Origin: Streptomyces zhihengii
GTDB lineage: Bacteria > Actinomycetota > Actinomycetes > Streptomycetales > Streptomycetaceae
Assembly: GCF_016919245.1 (NCBI RefSeq)
Contig: NZ_JAFEJA010000001.1
Coordinates: 6,225,501 to 6,289,500, forward strand
DNA length: 64,000 nt
Direction: 5' to 3'
The notes beneath the pieces were generated by a model. It was given only the letters and a program-made list of their open reading frames with translations, ran no database searches and was not told where the DNA came from. Of the stretch, positions 1-7,334 are shown in pieces. The translations under genes and the position numbers were made by a program. Positions within the stretch are counted from its first letter, which is position 1. The number at the start of each line of letters is the position of its first letter.

Positions 1-730
1 GGCGAAACTCAATCAGATCATCGCAGTGGAGAAGGGCGTCAAGTCCAAGGCGCACCAGGACCTGACGGCGGCCCACCACGGGCTCCAGAAGCCCGCGCTG
101 CTCGCCGGTATCTCGCGGACCTACCAGCCCAAGGACGAGGAGGGCGAGCAGTTGCCGCCCGAGTCCACCCGGGTCCAGGTGAAGGCCGAGGACGTGCTGC
201 GCGAGACGGCGAAGACGCTGACCAGGCTCTTCGATGTGACCGCCACCAAGGACTGGGCCAACTGCGCGGCCCGCGCGGACGTGAGCGTGGACGGCCGGGT
301 GCTGGTGGGCGACGTGCCCGTGTCGTATCTGCTCTTCCTGGAGAAGCAGCTCACCGACATCAACACCTTCGTCCGGAAGCTGCCGGTGCTCGACGCGTCC
401 GAGTCCTGGACGCAGGACCCGTCCACCGACGACTGGAAGACGGACGCGGTCCGCACGCTGCGCACCAAGAAGGTGCCCCGCAACCACGTCAAGGCCGAGG
501 CCACCGAGAAGCACCCGGCGCAGGTCGAGGTGTACTACGAGGACATCCCGGTCGGGTACTGGACGACGGTGAAGTTCTCCGGCGCGCTGCCGGCCCGACG
601 GGTCAACGAACTGCTGGAGCGGGTGGAGAAGCTCCAGCAGGCGGTGAAGTTCGCCCGCGAGGAGGCCAACGGCGCCGAGGTCACCGACCAGCGGGTGGGT
701 GACGCCGTGTTCGGCTATCTCTTCGGATAG
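1..730 (+). CDS. Conserved hypothetical protein (5' end cut by window)
   Basis: The reading frame is open to the first base of the window and reads AKLNQIIAVEKGVKSKAH at its start. The real start codon is therefore probably the codon whose last base is position 1, with only one or two bases missing. About 242 residues are visible, without signal peptide or membrane segment. The protein is charged, with a C-terminal helical stretch (LLERVEKLQQAVKFAREE). I do not recognise a characterised family. It looks like an uncharacterised protein widely conserved in Streptomyces. It lies directly upstream of two tRNA-like RNAs, which suggests (inference only) a role in RNA metabolism or the Ro/Y RNA system. 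The first RNA begins about 50 nt after the stop codon, so the gene and the RNAs could be co-transcribed. Confidence 0.75.
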   Translation, partial: AKLNQIIAVEKGVKSKAHQDLTAAHHGLQKPALLAGISRTYQPKDEEGEQLPPESTRVQVKAEDVLRETAKTLTRLFDVTATKDWANCAARADVSVDGRVLVGDVPVSYLLFLEKQLTDINTFVRKLPVLDASESWTQDPSTDDWKTDAVRTLRTKKVPRNHVKAEATEKHPAQVEVYYEDIPVGYWTTVKFSGALPARRVNELLERVEKLQQAVKFAREEANGAEVTDQRVGDAVFGYLFG

Positions 731-778
731 CCCCATGACTCCCCGGTCCGCCTGTGCGCGGGCCGGGGTGCGCGAGGA

Positions 779-926
779 GCGCAAAGCTGAAACTGAAGTT
801 CGTCGTGATCACGCGGTGGTGGTGGAGGTTCGAATCCTCCCCCCGGCACTCGTGCCGGGGTGGCCCAAGTCAGGCAGAGGCAGACCGCGTTCAATCTCAG
901 ACTATTGCTCCAGACTCAGCATTCGC
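779..926 (+). ncRNA. Y RNA-like RNA 1 with circularly permuted tRNA module
   Basis: The sequence folds as a tRNA whose halves are swapped. In order: anticodon-stem 3' strand ACGCGGT (811-817), variable loop, T stem GGAGG/CCTCC (824-828/836-840) with the canonical T loop TTCGAAT, acceptor 3' strand CCCCGGCAC (841-849), a two-base turn, acceptor 5' strand GTGCCGGGG (852-860), TG, a D arm with GCC/GGC stem (863-865/879-881) and a loop containing GG, then anticodon-stem 5' strand ACCGCGT (884-890), which pairs with 811-817. The acceptor end is closed and the anticodon end is open. Flanking bases pair as an imperfect long stem: 779-781/924-926, 786-790/916-920, 793-795/911-913 and 797-799/907-909. 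This is the layout of bacterial YrlA Y RNAs, in which the terminal stem binds Ro60. Transcript ends are estimated. Confidence 0.72.
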
Positions 927-946
927 CGCCGATCGCCGGATCGACC

Positions 947-1052
947 GGACCTGGGCTCCGGACGTCGAATTGCCGGTTCAAGTCCGGCCCGCGCAGCTCG
1001 ATGCGCGGTGGTCCAAAGGCAGGACGCGACGACATCATGCTGACCCGGGTCC
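947..1052 (+). ncRNA. Y RNA-like RNA 2 with circularly permuted tRNA module
   Basis: A second permuted tRNA fold follows directly. Order: anticodon-stem 3' strand CGTCG (963-967), 4-nt variable loop, T stem GCCGG/CCGGC (972-976/984-988) with loop TTCAAGT, acceptor 3' strand CCGCGCA (989-995), linker GCTCGA, acceptor 5' strand TGCGCGG (1002-1008), TG, D stem GTCC/GGAC (1011-1014/1022-1025) with loop AAAGGCA, one base, then anticodon-stem 5' strand CGACG (1027-1031). All helices have exact tRNA lengths (7, 4, 5 and 5 bp). Outside, GGACCTGGG (947-955) pairs with CCCGGGTCC (1044-1052), giving the basal stem expected for a Ro-binding Y RNA. Primary sequence differs from RNA 1 while the architecture is the same, which argues that the fold is selected. 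A terminator hairpin follows. Confidence 0.72.
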
Positions 1053-1088
1053 TCAAGCGTGCCGGCGTGCCGAATGGGCGGCATCACA

Positions 1089-1119
1089 GGGCTCGGGGGT
1101 CGGCTACACCCCCGGGCCC
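1089..1119. terminator. Bidirectional terminator hairpin
   Basis: A 12-bp stem (GGGCTCGGGGGT at 1089-1100 with 1108-1119, one G-T wobble) and a 7-nt loop lie between the RNA genes (plus strand) and the stop of the aminotransferase gene (minus strand). It can end both transcripts. Confidence 0.65.
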
Positions 1120-1133
1120 GCTCCGTTTCCGCG

Positions 1134-2345
1134 CTACTGGCGGTAGCCCGCGAGGAACCGGCCGATGCGGCTGATGGCCGCGTCCAGATCGTCGGCGTAC
1201 GGCAGGGTGAGGATCCGGAAGTGGTCGGTCCGGGGCCAGTTGAAGCCCGTGCCCTGCACGACCTGGATCTTCTCCCGGAGCAGCAGGTCCAGGACGAACT
1301 TCTCGTCGTCGTGGATCGGGTGCACCTTCGGGTCGAGCCGCGGGAAGGCGTACAGCGCTCCCTTCGGCTTGACGCAGGAGACGCCGGGGATCTCGTTGAG
1401 CTTCTGCCAGGCCCGTTCCCGCTGCTCGTACAGCCTGCCGCCGGGGGCGACCAGTTCCCCGATCGACTGGCGGCCGCCCAGCGCGGCCTGGATGGCGTAC
1501 TGCGCGGGCGCGTTGGCGCACAGCCGCATCGAGGCCAGCATGGTGAGGCCCTCGATGTAGTTGCGGGCGTGCCCGCGCGGACCGCTGACGACCAGCCAGC
1601 CGGAGCGGAAGCCGGCGACCCGGTACGTCTTGGACAGGCCGCCGAAGGTCAGCACGACGAGGTCGGGCGCGAGGGAGGCGGCCGGATAGTGGACCGCGTC
1701 GTCGTAGACGATCTGGTCGTAGATCTCGTCGGCGAACACCATCAGGCCGTGCCGGCGGGCGAGGTCGAGGATGCCCTCGACGATCTCGCGCGGGTAGACC
1801 GCGCCCGTGGGGTTGTTCGGGTTGATGATCACGACGGCGCGGGTCCGGTCGGTGATCTTCGAGGCCATGTCGGCCAGATCCGGGTACCAGTCCGACTCCT
1901 CGTCGCACAGGTAGTGCACCGCCTTGCCGCCGGCGAGCGTGGTCACGGCCGTCCAGAGCGGGAAGTCGGGCGCGGGGATCAGCACTTCGTCGCCGTCCTC
2001 CAGCAGCGCCTGGACGGCCATCGAGACGAGTTCGGAGACGCCGTTGCCCAGGAAGACGTCGTCGACGTCGACACCGGTCAGGCCCATCGCCTGGTAGCGC
2101 TGCGCCACGGCGCGGCGGGCGGACAGGATGCCGCGCGAGTCCGTGTAGCCGTGCGCCTGCGGCAGCATCCGGATCATGTCCTGGACGATCTCCTCCGGCG
2201 CCTCGAAGCCGAAGAGCGCGGGGTTGCCCGTGTTGAGCCGCAGGACGCTGTGACCCGCCTCCTCCAGCGCGTTGGCGTGCTCGATCACCGGACCGCGGAT
2301 CTCGTAGCAGACCTCGCTGAGTTTGCTCGACTGCCGGAACTCCAT
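1134..2345 (-). CDS. Class I/II PLP-dependent aminotransferase (AlaA-like)
   Basis: This 403-residue protein begins MEFRQSSKLSEVCYEIRGPV at an ATG preceded by a strong GGAGG site. Fold-type I aminotransferase signatures are clear: the NPNNPTG cofactor-binding segment, the ADEIYDQI segment with the pyridine-ring aspartate, the LSKTYRVAGFRSGW segment holding the lysine that forms the Schiff base, and a C-terminal arginine (RILTLPY) for the substrate carboxylate. Sequence and length match glutamate-pyruvate aminotransferases of the AlaA type, so it probably transfers amino groups between alanine or related amino acids and 2-oxoglutarate. It is divergent from an HxlR regulator, with operator-like repeats between them that may control both genes. 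Exact substrate is inferred from the family. Confidence 0.9.
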   Translation of the reverse strand: MEFRQSSKLSEVCYEIRGPVIEHANALEEAGHSVLRLNTGNPALFGFEAPEEIVQDMIRMLPQAHGYTDSRGILSARRAVAQRYQAMGLTGVDVDDVFLGNGVSELVSMAVQALLEDGDEVLIPAPDFPLWTAVTTLAGGKAVHYLCDEESDWYPDLADMASKITDRTRAVVIINPNNPTGAVYPREIVEGILDLARRHGLMVFADEIYDQIVYDDAVHYPAASLAPDLVVLTFGGLSKTYRVAGFRSGWLVVSGPRGHARNYIEGLTMLASMRLCANAPAQYAIQAALGGRQSIGELVAPGGRLYEQRERAWQKLNEIPGVSCVKPKGALYAFPRLDPKVHPIHDDEKFVLDLLLREKIQVVQGTGFNWPRTDHFRILTLPYADDLDAAISRIGRFLAGYRQ

Positions 2346-2375
2346 GCCGTGGCCTCCCCAGGACTGAATGTCGTA

Positions 2376-2410
2376 CTTGGTTTTACCAAGCATGAGCTTG
2401 GAAAGTCCAA
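2376..2410. promoter_or_regulatory. Two inverted-repeat operators between aminotransferase and HxlR genes
   Basis: CTTGG-N5-CCAAG (2376-2380/2386-2390) and TTGGA-N3-TCCAA (2398-2402/2406-2410) share a TTGG core and sit 30-65 bp from both divergent start codons. They are good candidates for binding sites of the HxlR dimer encoded at 2433, which would regulate itself and the aminotransferase gene. Confidence 0.55.
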
Positions 2411-2432
2411 CAACATGTCTACACTGCGTCGC

Positions 2433-3083
2433 ATGCCACGTGAGACCCGCCGCCGGAGCTACGACCAGTACTGCGCCGCGGCCCGCGCACTCGACGCCGT
2501 CGGCGACCGGTGGACGCTGCTCGTCGTCAGGGAGCTGCTGGCCGGTCCCCGCCGCTACACCGACCTCCACGCGGACCTCCCGGGCGTCAGCACCGACGTC
2601 CTGGCGTCGCGCCTGAAGGACATGGAGCTGACCGGCCTCGCCGAGCGCCACCGCCTGCCGCCGCCCGCCGCCGCCCACGTCTACGAACTCACCGAACGCG
2701 GCCGGGCCCTGCTGCCGGTCCTCGACGCCCTCGCCGTCTGGGGGGCGCCCGCACTCGCCGAGCGCCGCGCCACGGACGCGGTGCGCGCGCACTGGTTCGC
2801 GATCCCCCTGCTGGGCGTCCTCGGCGCGACCGCCGCGGGCCGCAGCGGGACGGTCGAGGTCCGCATCGACGAGGGCGTGTTCCATCTGCGCCTGTCCGCG
2901 GACGCCCCGCCGTCGTACGGCGACGGCCCCGCCGACGCCCCTGCCGCCGTCCTGACCCTCGCCACGGAGACCTGCACCGCACTGGCCGGCGGGGAGATCA
3001 CGCCGGCGGAAGCGGTGCGCGCCGGGCGGATCACCGTGGAGGGGGACGCGGCGCTCGTCGGCCTGCCGGACGGAGGGCCCTGA
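2433..3083 (+). CDS. HxlR-family transcriptional regulator with C-terminal SCP2-like domain
   Basis: The 216-residue protein starts at MPRETRRRSYDQYC; a second in-frame ATG lies 18 nt upstream. Residues about 10-105 form a winged helix of the HxlR (MarR-like) type: a cysteine near the N terminus (QYCAAARALDAVGDRWTLL), a recognition helix region (LPGVSTDVLASRLKDMEL) and a wing leading to YELTERG. The C-terminal half resembles the sterol-carrier-like domain often attached to actinobacterial HxlR proteins. The N-terminal cysteine could make it thiol- or aldehyde-responsive, as in HypR and related regulators, but this is inference. It is divergent from the aminotransferase, with inverted repeats in the shared promoter. 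Confidence 0.88.
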   Translation: MPRETRRRSYDQYCAAARALDAVGDRWTLLVVRELLAGPRRYTDLHADLPGVSTDVLASRLKDMELTGLAERHRLPPPAAAHVYELTERGRALLPVLDALAVWGAPALAERRATDAVRAHWFAIPLLGVLGATAAGRSGTVEVRIDEGVFHLRLSADAPPSYGDGPADAPAAVLTLATETCTALAGGEITPAEAVRAGRITVEGDAALVGLPDGGP

Positions 3084-3221
3084 CCGCACCGGGGGCCGCC
3101 GGCTCCGGTGCCATGGCCCGGCCCGACCGCACCGGGGGCCGCACCGCGCCGGGGCCCGGCCCGCCGGGTCCGGCCGCCCCCGCGTCACAGGGTCCGGCCG
3201 CTCCCGCGTCATGATGGGCGG

Positions 3222-3860
3222 GTGCGCGTCGAACCGATCACCTGGGAACTGCTGGCCGGACACCTCGCCGAGCACGTGCTCGCGTCACCGGCCGCCGACG
3301 GCAGCCCGTGGCTGCGCATCGGCGTCGACGGCGCGCCCGCCGCACGCCCGGACGAACTGGCGTCCCGCGTCGCCGACGAGCTGCGGCTGCGCGGACACGG
3401 CGTCCTCGTGGTGGGCACCGGCGGCTTCCTGCGGCCGGCCTCGCTCCGGTACGAGTACGGCCGCGAGGACCCCGACACGTATCTCAGCGGCTGGTTCGAC
3501 ACCGGCGCGCTGTGGCGGGAGGTCCTGGGGCCACTGGACGCGGGCGGGAACGGGCGGGTGCTGCCCGACCTCTGGGATCCCGCCACCGACCGGGCCACCC
3601 GCTCACCGCACGTCGAACTGCCCCACGGGGGAGTGCTGTTGCTGCACGGCCCGTTCCTGCTGGGCCACTGGTTCCCGTTCGACCTGACGGTGCATCTGCG
3701 GCTCTCCCCGGGAGCGCTGGAACGCCGGACCGCGGAGGCGGACCGCTGGACGCTGCCGGCCTTCGCCCGCTACGAGGACGAGGTGGCGCCCGGCCGCGCG
3801 GCGGACGTCGTCGTCCGCGCCGACGACCCGCGCCGTCCGGCCTGGAGCGGCCTGCCCTGA
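3222..3860 (+). CDS. Uridine kinase-like P-loop protein
   Basis: A 212-residue protein beginning VRVEPITWELLAGHLAEHV at a GTG. It resembles actinobacterial proteins annotated as uridine kinases: an N-terminal region where the P-loop would be (LRIGVDGAPAARPDELA), followed by a segment on substrate binding (GTGGFLRPASLRYEYGREDPDTYLSGWFDT) and a lid-like region (HLRLSPGALERRTAEADRW). The Walker A motif is degenerate: the usual GKS/T is replaced by APAARP. Catalytic activity is therefore doubtful and the protein could be a non-enzymatic homologue. It lies next to, and convergent with, the pseudouridine catabolism genes, which makes a role in nucleoside metabolism plausible. The start is chosen because upstream sequence is low-complexity and lacks family similarity. 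Confidence 0.65.
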   Translation: MRVEPITWELLAGHLAEHVLASPAADGSPWLRIGVDGAPAARPDELASRVADELRLRGHGVLVVGTGGFLRPASLRYEYGREDPDTYLSGWFDTGALWREVLGPLDAGGNGRVLPDLWDPATDRATRSPHVELPHGGVLLLHGPFLLGHWFPFDLTVHLRLSPGALERRTAEADRWTLPAFARYEDEVAPGRAADVVVRADDPRRPAWSGLP

Positions 3861-3977
3861 CCGGCCCCGGGTGCGGCGCCGCCCGCCCCCGCGCAAGGGC
3901 CCGGACGCCCAGGACCGCGGCGCACGGCCGGCCGCTGGATGCGTCGTGCGGACCGGTCCCGGTCCGGTCTGCCCGTG

Positions 3978-4922
3978 TCAGGGGCGGCCGCCGACGAGGG
4001 TGACCGCCTGGGCGCCCGCCCGGCAGCCCGCCTCCGCGGCGGCCGGCGCGTCCGCCCCGCAGAGGCGCGCCGCGAGGAACGCGCCGGTGAACGCGTCCCC
4101 GGCGCCCGTCGAGTCCACCGGCTCGGCCGGGAGCGCCGGGACCCGCGCCGTGACCCGGCCCGACTCCGCGATCACGGCCCCCTCGGCGCCGAGGGTGACC
4201 ACGGTGAGCGGCGCCAGCCGGCTGAGCTCGGCCGCCGCGTCCGCCGGATCCTCGGCGCCGGTGAGCAGCCGCGCCTCGTCCGCGTTCGGGAGGAGGATGT
4301 CCACGCCGTCGAGGGCCGACAGCGTCCTGTCCACGCCCTGGGCGGTGATGAAGCCCGCGGACGCGGGATCCACGCTCACCGGCACACCCCGCGCCCGCGC
4401 CGCGTCCATCGCCAGCCGGGCGACCTCCCTGCTGGAGTCGGCGAAGAACAGGTAGCCGGACAGATGGAGATGCCCCACCCCGTCCAGCAGTTCCGGCGAC
4501 CAGTCCTCCGGTGCCAGCCGCAGCACCGCTCCGCTGTCCGTGAGGAACGTGCGCTCGGCCGAGGTGTCGACGAGCGCGATGACCGTGGCGGTCCGCAGCT
4601 CGGCGTCGGTCACCAGCATCGGCCGGACCCCCGCCGCCCGCAGCCGCTCCGCGTGCCAGGCCACGTCGTCCTCGCCCACCCGGGCCAGGATCCGGACGTC
4701 GCCGCAGCCCCGGTCGGCGGCCCAGCAGCAGACGTTGGCCCCCGCGCCGCCCGGCACGATCCGGATGTCGGCGTCGGTGTCGGTGCCCCGGGCGAGCGGT
4801 GCCGAGTGGCGGGCCACCACGTCCGTGACCACGTCGCCGACGACGAGCAGCCCGGGCGGCTCCTGACCGCGGGCGTCGTGCGGCCACGGCGCCCGGTGCG
4901 CCTTCCTGGTCCAGGACGTCAT
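3978..4922 (-). CDS. psuK: PfkB-family pseudouridine kinase
   Basis: This 314-residue ribokinase-fold protein has the two PfkB signatures: an N-terminal glycine-rich substrate site (IVPGGAGANVCCWAADRG) and the C-terminal DSTGAGDAFTGAFLA motif with the catalytic aspartate and the anion hole. NADEARLLTG is the usual family segment. Its ATG overlaps the stop of psuG by four bases (ATGA), so translation is coupled. PsuK phosphorylates pseudouridine at the 5' position and PsuG then cleaves the C-C glycosidic bond, giving uracil and ribose 5-phosphate. Function is inferred from the pairing, because PfkB kinases alone do not reveal their substrate. Confidence 0.85.
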   Translation of the reverse strand: MTSWTRKAHRAPWPHDARGQEPPGLLVVGDVVTDVVARHSAPLARGTDTDADIRIVPGGAGANVCCWAADRGCGDVRILARVGEDDVAWHAERLRAAGVRPMLVTDAELRTATVIALVDTSAERTFLTDSGAVLRLAPEDWSPELLDGVGHLHLSGYLFFADSSREVARLAMDAARARGVPVSVDPASAGFITAQGVDRTLSALDGVDILLPNADEARLLTGAEDPADAAAELSRLAPLTVVTLGAEGAVIAESGRVTARVPALPAEPVDSTGAGDAFTGAFLAARLCGADAPAAAEAGCRAGAQAVTLVGGRP

Positions 4923-5842
4923 GCCCGGGCCGCCGCGTACGCCGCCGCCACCCGCGCCGCCAGCGTCACGTTCCCGCGCACGGCCGCCAGGTTGGCCTCC
5001 AGCGAGGCCCCCTCCGTGTACCGGGTGAGGCGTTCGAGGAGGAAGGGGGTGACGGCCTGGCCGGTGACGCCCTCGTGCTCCGCCTCCTGGAGGGCGCGGG
5101 CCAGCACCCGGTCGTGCAGGGCCGGTTCGAGCTGCTCCGCCTCGGGCACGGGGTTGGCCACCACCAGCGAGGTGCACGGCGGACCGAGCCGGTCCTGCGC
5201 GCGCATCACGGCGGCGACCTCCTCGGGCGTGTCCACGCTCCAGTCCACCGGCTCGCCCGACGAGGACAGGTAGAAGCCGGGGAAGTGGGCGGTCCCGTAG
5301 CCGACGACCCCCACGCCGAGCGTCTCCAGACGCTGGAGCGTGGCCGGTACGTCGAGGATGGACTTGACGCCCGCGCAGACCACGGCGACACCGCACTCCG
5401 CGAGCAGACGCAGATCGGCGGACTCGTCCTGGGTCTCCGTCCAGCCCCGGTGGACGCCGCCGAGACCGCCGGTGGCGAAGACCCGGATGCCCGCCTTCTC
5501 CGCGGCGAGCGCGGTCCCGGACACGGTGGTCGCCCCGCTGGCGCCCGTAGCGAGCGCGGGCGCGAGGTCGCGGTGCCCCAGCTTCCGGATCGCGGGGTCG
5601 CCGGCGATCCGTTCCAGCCCCTCCTTGTCGAGGCCCACACACAGCCGCCCGTCGAGGACGGCGACGGTGGCGGGCACGGCGCCCTGCTCCCGTACCAGGT
5701 CCTCCAGTTCGCGGGCGACGGCGAGATTGCGCGGGCGCGGCAACCCGTGCGCGATGATCGTCGACTCCAGGGCCACCACCGGGGCGCCGGAGTCGAGGGC
5801 GCTGCGTACCTCTGCGGACACTTCCACGGCACTGTTCGGCAT
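4919..5842 (-). CDS. psuG: Pseudouridine-5'-phosphate glycosidase
   Basis: A 307-residue protein that matches the PsuG family along its whole length. It shows the segments VVALESTIIAHGLPRPRNL, the glutamate/lysine-rich catalytic core (GLDKEGLERIA, HRDLAPALATGASGATTVSGT), FATGGLGGVHRG, the catalytic CAGVKSILD lysine region, and GYGTAHFPGFY. PsuG is a lyase-like enzyme using a Schiff base to break the C1'-C5 bond of pseudouridine 5'-phosphate in the cytoplasm. A GAGG ribosome site precedes the ATG. It is the first gene of a two-gene operon with psuK, a salvage path for pseudouridine from RNA turnover. Confidence 0.95.
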   Translation of the reverse strand: MPNSAVEVSAEVRSALDSGAPVVALESTIIAHGLPRPRNLAVARELEDLVREQGAVPATVAVLDGRLCVGLDKEGLERIAGDPAIRKLGHRDLAPALATGASGATTVSGTALAAEKAGIRVFATGGLGGVHRGWTETQDESADLRLLAECGVAVVCAGVKSILDVPATLQRLETLGVGVVGYGTAHFPGFYLSSSGEPVDWSVDTPEEVAAVMRAQDRLGPPCTSLVVANPVPEAEQLEPALHDRVLARALQEAEHEGVTGQAVTPFLLERLTRYTEGASLEANLAAVRGNVTLAARVAAAYAAARA

Positions 5843-5972
5843 GTCCTCATCCCTGGCGCGGTGGCGGGAGCCGCAAACACCGGCGTGCTCCGGGCGTCCG
5901 TCGGCGGCCCGCGGCGACACGGGGCGTGTGACGTCTCCGGTCACCGCCGCCCGCCCGCGGGGCGGGTCCGGA

Positions 5973-7334
5973 TCAGGCGCGGTTCAGGGCCCGGCGGACG
6001 GTCAGGGCCGCCATCGGCAGCAGCAGCGCGGCGCCGAGCGCGTTCAGCCACGGGTAGCCGGCCTGCGCCACCACCAGGCCCGCCGCAGCGCCGCCGATCC
6101 CCGCCGCCGTGTTCATGGTGAGGTCCGACAGGCCCTGGACCGCCGCGCGGACCGGCTGCGGCACGGAGTCGGTGAGCAGGGCCGAGCCGGCCACCAGTCC
6201 GGCCGACCAGCCGAGGCCCAGCAGGAACAGGCCGGTCGCCGTGCGCCCGTGGCTCGCGCCGGCCGTACCGGCCAGCAGTGCCGCGACGGCGATCAGCCCG
6301 GCCGCCAGTCCGATGACCGACAGCCGGCCGAGCCGGTCCGCGAGCCTGCCCATCAGCGGGGCGAAGGCGTACATGCCCGCGATGTGGCCGCTGATCACCA
6401 GGCCGATCAGCTCGATCCCGGCGCCGTGGTGACCGAGGGCGACGGGGGTCATCGACATGATCGAGACCATCGACGTGTGCGAGACGGCGACGGTCACCAG
6501 TGCCAGCCGGGCCATGGGGGAGTCGCGTACCGCGCGGACCGCCGCCCGCAGCGAACGTCCCTCGGGGGAGCGGTCCTCCGGGGAGAGGGCGCGGGCGGTC
6601 AGCAGGGGATCCGGCCGCAGCAGGACGAGGACCAGCACGGCGGCCGCCAGGAAGACGCCCGCCGCCCACAGGAACGGCCCGGCCGCCGCCGGTATGCCCA
6701 GCCCGGACACGCTGTGCCCGGCGGGCGCGGCGATGTTCGGGCCGAGGACCGCGCCGATCGTGGTCGCCCAGACGACCAGGGAGATCGCCCGTGCCCGGTG
6801 CTCGGGCTCGGCCAGGTCCGCGGCGGCGAACCGGGCCTGGAGATTGGCGGAGGACGCCGCCCCGAAGCCCGCCATGCCGAGGAGGAGCAGCGGGAAGCTG
6901 CCGGCCACGGCGGCGACCACGACCACGCCCGCCCCGAGCGCGCCGACGGCGTAGGCGAGCACCAGCCCCGGACGCCGCCCCCTGGCGGTCATCAGGGCGG
7001 CCAGCGGCACCGAGAGCAGGGCGGTGCCCGCGACGCTCGCGGTCGGCGCGAGACCCGCCAGCGCCTCGGTGCCGCTGATCTCCTGTGCGAGCACCGTGGC
7101 GAGCGCGACGCCGGTGGCGACCCCGAGGCCGCCGAGGATCTGACTGGCGATGAGCACCGCGTTCACCCGGCGCCGCAGCGCGGGGAGTCCGGAGACGCCG
7201 GGCGCGGTGCCGGGCACGAGGGCGCCCGGCGCGGCGCCGGGCGCGGTGTCCTGCGCTTCCTGCGTGTCCTGCGTGGTGTCGGATATGCCGGGGGTGTCCG
7301 GGCCGTCGGGCGTGCCCGGCTGGAGGGTCGTCAC
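5973..7334 (-). CDS. MFS transporter
   Basis: The GTG start (VTTLQPGTPDGPDTPG) gives 453 residues: a Pro/Gly/Ala-rich cytoplasmic N-terminal tail of about 50 residues, then about twelve hydrophobic segments in two halves. Typical major facilitator features are the LMTARGRRPGLVLAY loop between helices 2 and 3, and its counterpart LMGRLADRLGRLSVIG in the second half. The family exports drugs or metabolites by proton antiport; the substrate cannot be read from the sequence. It follows psuG in the same direction with a gap of 130 nt, so a link with pseudouridine is possible but not shown. Confidence 0.85.
   Translation of the reverse strand: MTTLQPGTPDGPDTPGISDTTQDTQEAQDTAPGAAPGALVPGTAPGVSGLPALRRRVNAVLIASQILGGLGVATGVALATVLAQEISGTEALAGLAPTASVAGTALLSVPLAALMTARGRRPGLVLAYAVGALGAGVVVVAAVAGSFPLLLLGMAGFGAASSANLQARFAAADLAEPEHRARAISLVVWATTIGAVLGPNIAAPAGHSVSGLGIPAAAGPFLWAAGVFLAAAVLVLVLLRPDPLLTARALSPEDRSPEGRSLRAAVRAVRDSPMARLALVTVAVSHTSMVSIMSMTPVALGHHGAGIELIGLVISGHIAGMYAFAPLMGRLADRLGRLSVIGLAAGLIAVAALLAGTAGASHGRTATGLFLLGLGWSAGLVAGSALLTDSVPQPVRAAVQGLSDLTMNTAAGIGGAAAGLVVAQAGYPWLNALGAALLLPMAALTVRRALNRA

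Follow-up and report, generated by a model that had tools for sequence, protein, structure and literature searches.

A tandem pair of permuted tRNA-like RNA arms downstream of the DUF7873 gene in Streptomyces zhihengii, other bacteria and phages

The window, that is, the whole 64,000-nucleotide stretch of the Streptomyces zhihengii genome that was analysed, opens with a gene on its forward strand (2..730) that encodes a protein of about 242 residues. Reading of the full open reading frame and the Pfam search indicated that this protein belongs to DUF7873 (PF25283), the match of 402.9 bits exceeding the curated cut-off of 27, and that its start lies 2 bases upstream of the window (L002:9999-10730). 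A single promoter-like site was detected in the promoter scan, upstream of DUF7873. On the same strand, a structured region begins 55 bases after the end of the gene (730) and reaches about position 1120. This region includes two units, 786-920 and 934-1067, each of which corresponds to a tRNA with its 3' half ahead of its 5' half. The order within each unit is T arm, acceptor hairpin, U8-R9 and D arm, and the unit is closed by an equivalent of the anticodon stem and by a basal stem. Tandem permuted tRNA-like segments had been proposed in a sequence-only reading of this DNA; the helices were found at the places given there, the letters were verified and the folds covary. The extent given in that reading was 779..1052, but the basal stem of the second arm reaches at least 1067. 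After arm 2, a conserved hairpin without U tract (1090..1118; columns 387-417 of the whole-element consensus fold) may represent the 3' end, and the terminator scan gave 0 terminator-like sites. Another hairpin without U tract, rich in GC, was noted at 741-768, directly after the DUF7873 stop codon and before arm 1, and by eye a similar hairpin is located at the same place in some relatives and phages.

The segments 812-889 and 963-1031 run from the 3' strand of the anticodon stem through the variable loop, T arm, acceptor hairpin, U8 plus purine and GG-bearing D arm to the 5' strand of the anticodon stem. Arm 1 as a whole (784..927) was matched at 136.7 bits by model R2, which represents this arm and includes it as a training sequence (L002:10784-10927). 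When 21 elements were folded de novo into a consensus, the 5' strand of its basal stem (786..790) paired with 916-920, and the next basal helix is formed between 793-795 and 911-913. The anticodon-stem equivalent (812..817 with 884-889) was given by the minimum-energy fold and supported by a swapped-partner control over many arms, and its letters were checked. Next come the T arm of 5 bp with the loop UUCGAAU (824..840), in which two of the five pairs changed on both sides and three are invariant, and the acceptor hairpin of 8 bp (841..860; 841-848, loop CUCG, 853-860), in which all seven tested pairs changed on both sides. U8 and G9 (861-862) and the D arm (863-865/879-881), with GG in its loop and invariant stem pairs, complete the domain (861..881).

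Arm 2 (929..1070) was matched at 135 bits by model R1, which represents arm 2 and likewise includes this sequence in its training set (L002:10929-11070). Both its outer basal stem (934..939 with 1062-1067) and its inner basal stem (947..955 with 1044-1052) are covarying helices, and they are separated by an internal loop AUCGACC (940..946, facing 1053-1061), which is conserved in two alignments and is a candidate for the protein-binding site. The anticodon-stem equivalent (963..967 with 1027-1031) was supported in the same three ways as that of arm 1. The T arm of 5 bp with the loop UUCAAGU (972..988) changed on both sides at four of five pairs, the acceptor hairpin of 7 bp with the loop GCUCGA (989..1008) at all seven, and the D arm (1011-1014/1022-1025, loop AAAGGCA), which follows U8 and G9 (1009-1010), at three of four (1009..1025). 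In both arms the anticodon loop is absent and the anticodon stem is left open, continuing as a basal stem with internal loops; the open stem and its continuation had been described correctly from the sequence, as had the tRNA-like character of the T loops (here TTCGAAT and TTCAAGT) and the GG in both D loops.

The element differs from a tRNA gene in lacking the standard order and the anticodon, and ARAGORN called 0 genes there. No ordinary tRNA was detected by ARAGORN in the window; with no tRNA at the element, two tandem tRNA genes were ruled out as the source of the fold. Permuted tRNA genes, as found in algae and archaea, likewise have the 3' half ahead of the 5' half. The element is different from these in that it carries no anticodon loop and its anticodon stem extends into the basal stem. 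The two-piece tmRNA also contains a permuted tRNA domain with a loop linking the acceptor strands, but the present element has two tRNA-like domains; no tmRNA was detected by ARAGORN in the window or by Rfam within 1-6000 (up to E 10) or 900-1130, and no Rfam 15 family matched the element at its gathering score. The closest likeness is to YrlA (RF02553; partner Ro60/Rsr), in which T arm, acceptor hairpin, UR and D arm are carried on an end-paired basal stem. Differences from YrlA are the partner gene, DUF7873, the presence of two arms whose order and spacing are fixed, and other basal sequences. The RNA core is the YrlA kind of tRNA mimic, and the pair of gene and RNA is little described or not described: among the papers searched we found none on the element and none on DUF7873, and such RNAs may be mentioned in Chen 2014 or in other key Y RNA papers and reviews.

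The folding energy of a single arm is no proof of its fold. For arm 1 the z value was −1.38, with 20 of 200 shuffled sequences as stable, and for arm 2 it was −0.73 (47 of 200). For the whole region the z value was −3.47, and none of 100 shuffled sequences was as stable. Covariation was tested on MAFFT alignments, which are blind to structure, with shuffled and slid controls, and the arm alignments consisted of copies found by the detector, viral ones included. For arm 1 (31 sequences, 30 distinct; 15 pairs), 99.8% of cells were paired and the score was 0.464 against 0.131 after shuffling; for arm 2 (37 sequences; 16 pairs), all cells were paired and the score was 0.768 against 0.235. Without any structure supplied, RNAalifold recovered all three tRNA-like helices (T, acceptor and D) in arm 1; in arm 2 it recovered the same three together with the basal helices, with 30 of 33 pairs changed on both sides. 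In its fold of the whole element (21 elements), 39 of 69 pairs had changes on both sides. The T arm, acceptor hairpin and basal stem were obtained there for both arms and the D arm for arm 2, but the D-arm region of arm 1 was paired differently. Compensatory base changes, which the sequence-only reading had proposed to look for among homologues, are therefore present in both arms, and covariation proves the T arm and acceptor hairpin in each of them and, in arm 2, also the D arm. For the basal stem of arm 1 the proof is weaker, because its conservation is mainly sequence identity with few compensatory changes. The anticodon-stem equivalents are absent from the RNAalifold consensus folds. A perfect 5-bp equivalent was nevertheless found in 55 of 107 type-1 arms (mean 15.5 and maximum 23 with swapped partners) and in 91 of 123 type-2 arms (mean 28.7, maximum 40), indicating a clear enrichment, though about half of the type-1 arms have no perfect one.

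Likeness to tRNA was examined in 219 arms; since the detector that chose them requires the fold, counts of conserved positions are partly built into the selection. With this reservation, U8 was present in 215, a purine at position 9 in 208, GG in the D loop in 214 and A58 in 217, and U8, R9, A14, GG, TTC and A58 are nearly always conserved. When the tRNA order was restored by script, with ACCA and an artificial anticodon loop added, ARAGORN called 214 of the 219 arms as tRNA, compared with 0 of 1095 shuffled sequences and 0 of 219 arms in native order. In 69 of the 219 arms, CCA is located at tRNA positions 74-76, NCCA spanning exactly 73-76 as counted from the end of the T stem, and no other offset between 0 and 15 gave more than 9. 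This placement suggests that the ends derive from those of real tRNAs and perhaps have a function. The loop between the acceptor strands ranges from 3 to more than 30 bases. These three features, the near-constant tRNA positions (partly a matter of selection), the placement of NCCA and the variable loop, would agree with a processed RNA, from which the acceptor loop is excised as in two-piece tmRNA or permuted tRNA and the CCA-bearing body is charged or modified as a donor or signal. Such processing is rather improbable, given that 150 of the 219 arms, the two of the window among them, carry no CCA at positions 74-76, that many loops are only 3-8 bases long, and that the arms have no anticodon and the window gave no Rfam tmRNA match.

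The two arms are not equally constant in composition. The tRNA-like domain of arm 2 was found in all 30 loci compared, that of arm 1 in 26 of 30, the window's own included. In the remaining four (L013, L014, L019 and L023) the domain of arm 1 is lost or swapped for a short hairpin, and the basal stem stays. YrlA is described as modular in PMC8394870, its basal stem binding Ro60 and its tRNA-like effector domain binding PNPase. By analogy with this organization, the basal stem of the present element is the likely protein site.

Coupling of the RNA to DUF7873 was analysed among related genomes. Matches to the 406-base DNA sequence were obtained in 32 of 61 genomes, and in all 30 loci fetched, the window's own included, DUF7873 was located directly upstream on the same strand. 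G002 and G006 gave short DNA matches only and contain no DUF7873; G010 and G045 contain the DUF7873 gene and gave no DNA match. Model R1 and Pfam PF25283 were then run on the same 61 genomes, stricter filters, by which weak matches may be lost, applying to R1 searches over more than 40 genomes. A total of 33 copies of DUF7873 were detected in 32 genomes, and each of the 33 is adjoined by an R1 match of at least 55 bits (that of G051 being cut by the contig end); 27 of these matches are R1 training sequences, and the other six are those of G010, G017, G033, G038 (second copy), G045 and G051. For the 29 genomes without DUF7873, the best R1 score was 53.1 bits. In the window's own genome, an R1 match of 53.1 bits at G000:C1:5644880-5645016 was identified as a false positive, consisting of two adjacent tRNA genes (L035). 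The uncharacterised protein gene noted next to the RNA in the sequence-only reading is thus DUF7873, and it is a constant neighbour. The longest open reading frame on each side, not necessarily the adjacent gene, was taken for 12 loci; of the 20 of these 24 that were scanned, from 11 loci, 11 matched Pfam and no family recurred in two loci, and the pair of gene and RNA therefore seems to stand alone.

The pair is not confined to Streptomyces and its relatives. From the named genome contigs, the best 80 of 530 DUF7873 loci were examined with both models; as judged from record titles, these include Acidobacteriota, Myxococcota, Planctomycetota, Cyanobacteria, Chloroflexi, Armatimonadetes and many Actinomycetota. 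Both R1 and R2 matched 76 of the 80 loci at E 0.1 or better, with the arms at two neighbouring places. Weak cases among the 76 are L120, with a second match of 21.2 bits, and L170, with a short arm 1, and three of the 80 (L121, L124 and L129) are training loci. The element had been taken for a feature of Streptomyces that is undescribed or little described; the latter part stands, but several bacterial phyla and phages also carry it. In the four exceptions, three Herpetosiphon genomes and one Chloroflexi MAG (L176-L179), R1 matched elsewhere in the genome with 88-95 bits, and no DUF7873 was found within 1.5 kb of the displaced RNA. In L178, the flanks of the RNA resemble by eye chloride-channel and glycosyltransferase genes. 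In the loci with both arms detected, the gap between the D arm of arm 1 and the T arm of arm 2 had a median of 89 bases (91 of 152 loci; spacing limited to 40-140 by the script), and the DUF7873 stop codon was a median of 91 bases away from the first T arm (91 of 152). The latter spacing, together with the location on the same strand in nearly all loci, might point to a cis-acting element in the 3' UTR of the DUF7873 mRNA, which would bind its own protein or a tRNA enzyme and control expression. The separation of RNA and gene in the four genomes, and the orientation of both arms opposite to DUF7873 in L060 and L116, make such a role highly improbable.

In a search for members of the DUF7873 family, at least 7,535 passed E 0.001 among the 8,000 candidates scored, and invariant residues are located along the whole length of the protein. 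The named close relatives of the window's protein are from Streptomyces and its kin. Among 198 sampled genomes of the phylum, only six carry the gene, all belonging to the genus of the window, indicating a patchy distribution. A Deinobacterium control genome was also found to encode DUF7873. With a confidently predicted structure as the query, no convincing structural relative was found. The best lead is a weak one: in Foldseek, a protein of the uncultured phage cr118_1 (BFVD A0A7M1RW91) matched the DUF7873 model with a probability of 0.99, TM 0.54 of the target and E 0.03, and might be a structural relative. Since no confident structural relative is at hand, the argument for RNA binding is drawn from the genetic linkage, by which DUF7873 very probably binds this RNA.

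In the sequence-only reading, the arms were assigned to the YrlA class of Y RNAs bound by Ro60, and a look for an Ro60/TROVE gene upstream of the window was proposed. The only TROVE match in the genome was located about 89 kb downstream (G000:C1:6315136-6316719), where it is preceded by a YrlA-like RNA of its own (G000:C1:6314860-6314955). Against Rfam YrlA, arm 1 scored 18.0 bits and arm 2 scored 27.5 bits, both below the gathering score of 69; this cut-off discriminates poorly here, because the Ro60-linked RNA, with 42.8 bits, also misses it. The Ro60-linked RNA of the same genome shares the permuted core with the element, but differs from it in its location beside TROVE and in its scores, 42.8 bits to YrlA and only 31.5 to R1. 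The basal stems of both arms align poorly to the Rfam YrlA consensus. Among the 61 relatives, 23 carry both TROVE and DUF7873, nine DUF7873 only, 11 TROVE only and 18 neither; four of the nine genomes with DUF7873 only are assembled in 1 to 5 contigs, and the absence of TROVE is not certain, as a short part of the domain was used for detection. The distance of about 89 kb and the genomes without detectable TROVE weaken the candidacy of Ro60 as the fixed partner. The YrlA label is apt for the permuted order and the basal stem, and membership in the Ro60-bound class is not supported: the scores fall short of 69, TROVE is far off and nine of 32 DUF7873-bearing relatives lack it within the limits of detection.

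Ro60 is linked to the pair in some phages. TROVE was matched in four of 23 viral DUF7873 records, and the 19 without a match include some fragments. In an IMG/VR contig, DUF7873, arm 1, arm 2, small ORFs, three YrlA-like matches (one of them overlapping a tRNA gene) and TROVE are arranged in a row (L056:2995-6735). The distance to TROVE is about 1.1 kb in L061, where it is located upstream, about 5 kb in Rhizobium phage TM39, where it is located downstream, and about 18 kb in one further contig. At least five Rhizobium phage records contain both DUF7873 and TROVE, among the 40 of 73 DUF7873 records and 40 of 89 TROVE records listed. The occurrence of TROVE in only four of 23 viral records and 23 of 32 relatives indicates that Ro60 and the pair are linked in some phages, but that the pair does not depend on Ro60. 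The arms could still act as Ro60 Y RNAs in trans, with their basal stems bound by a distantly encoded Ro60 and DUF7873 as an accessory. The YrlA order of the tRNA-like core, the neighbourhood in L056 and L061, the Rhizobium phages and the 23 relatives carrying both genes would agree with this, but it is unlikely in view of the relatives and viral records in which TROVE was not detected, the separate YrlA-like RNA of the window genome's own Ro60 and the poorly aligned basal stems. Within about 1.5 kb of TROVE, the relatives G012, G013, G016, G021, G024, G033, G034 and G045 also have two R1 core matches each, separated by about 160-270 bases, so that the tRNA-like RNAs linked to Ro60 may likewise occur as pairs.

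With the folds, their conservation and their co-inheritance with the DUF7873 gene established, we favour on balance a Y-RNA-like scaffold that would work without Ro60, carries two tRNA-mimic arms and has DUF7873 as its putative partner. Both arms would be located on one transcript and form a single noncoding RNA unit. The tip of each arm would present a permuted tRNA body, composed of elbow and acceptor stem without anticodon and closed by the basal stem with its conserved internal loop. DUF7873 would bind the RNA either at its conserved basal stems or at the junction; the tRNA-like ends may plausibly dock a protein that recognises the elbow or acceptor stem, such as an RNase, a modification enzyme, the CCA enzyme or a translation factor. 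The RNA would then tether DUF7873 to the machinery of tRNA or RNA metabolism without Ro60, in the way that YrlA tethers Ro60 to PNPase, as given in PMC8394870. The role of a scaffold or tether like that of YrlA, with another protein in place of Ro60, is the most likely one. Among the points against it, the 69 of 219 arms with CCA hint at a function of the tRNA end that a plain tether need not have, and gene and RNA are unlinked in the three Herpetosiphon genomes and the Chloroflexi MAG. In a wider sense, DUF7873 and the double-arm RNA probably represent a second, Ro60-independent class of tRNA-mimic RNP, which may either play a Y-RNA-like role or feed a processed, CCA-ended tRNA body into a reaction. 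A widespread and conserved RNA-protein pair without described function is rare; the orphan DUF7873 family gains a concrete candidate for its RNA partner, and tRNA mimicry by Y-like RNAs is separated from Ro60.

Among phage records, 73 of 50,697 encode DUF7873, all with less than 60% identity, and 33 IMG/VR loci, close relatives only, also encode it. Eight of ten fetched phage records contain 410-697 unannotated bases after DUF7873, and no such RNA is listed in the annotation of the ten fetched stretches. In nine of the ten, R1 or R2 matched with E 0.01 or better no farther than about 2.2 kb from the gene; the match in a Vibrio phage (L086) was weak (E 0.012), and in the Pseudanabaena and Microcoleus phages (L083 and L088) the matches are located about 0.6 to 2.2 kb downstream, beyond the gap adjacent to the gene. 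At least one match was obtained for each of the 27 IMG/VR loci (of 33) run through the models, several of these viral sequences having been included in the training set. An annotated tRNA is present within about 1.5 kb of the DUF7873 gene in seven of the ten fetched phage records. This proximity and the lack of an anticodon in the tRNA body would fit a decoy that draws off nucleases or other tRNA-attacking proteins, with DUF7873 stabilising or presenting the RNA and phages shielding their own tRNAs; a decoy role has been suggested for YrlA in PMC7790460. We regard a decoy as quite improbable: no PADLOC family matched the three DUF7873 proteins tested, a tRNA gene was found in only one (L107) of eight bacterial loci scanned, and conservation of the arm 1 basal stem without its tRNA-like domain suggests more than a decoy. 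On the scaffold reading, phages would carry the pair, often near their own tRNA genes, to alter the handling of RNA or tRNA during infection, and phages with tRNA genes of their own offer a tractable setting for its study. In Gordonia phage Phendrix, where the fetched annotation shows no tmRNA, the segment L080:2063-2591 within the phage tRNA cluster was found to match Rfam tmRNA with 89 bits (gathering 47).
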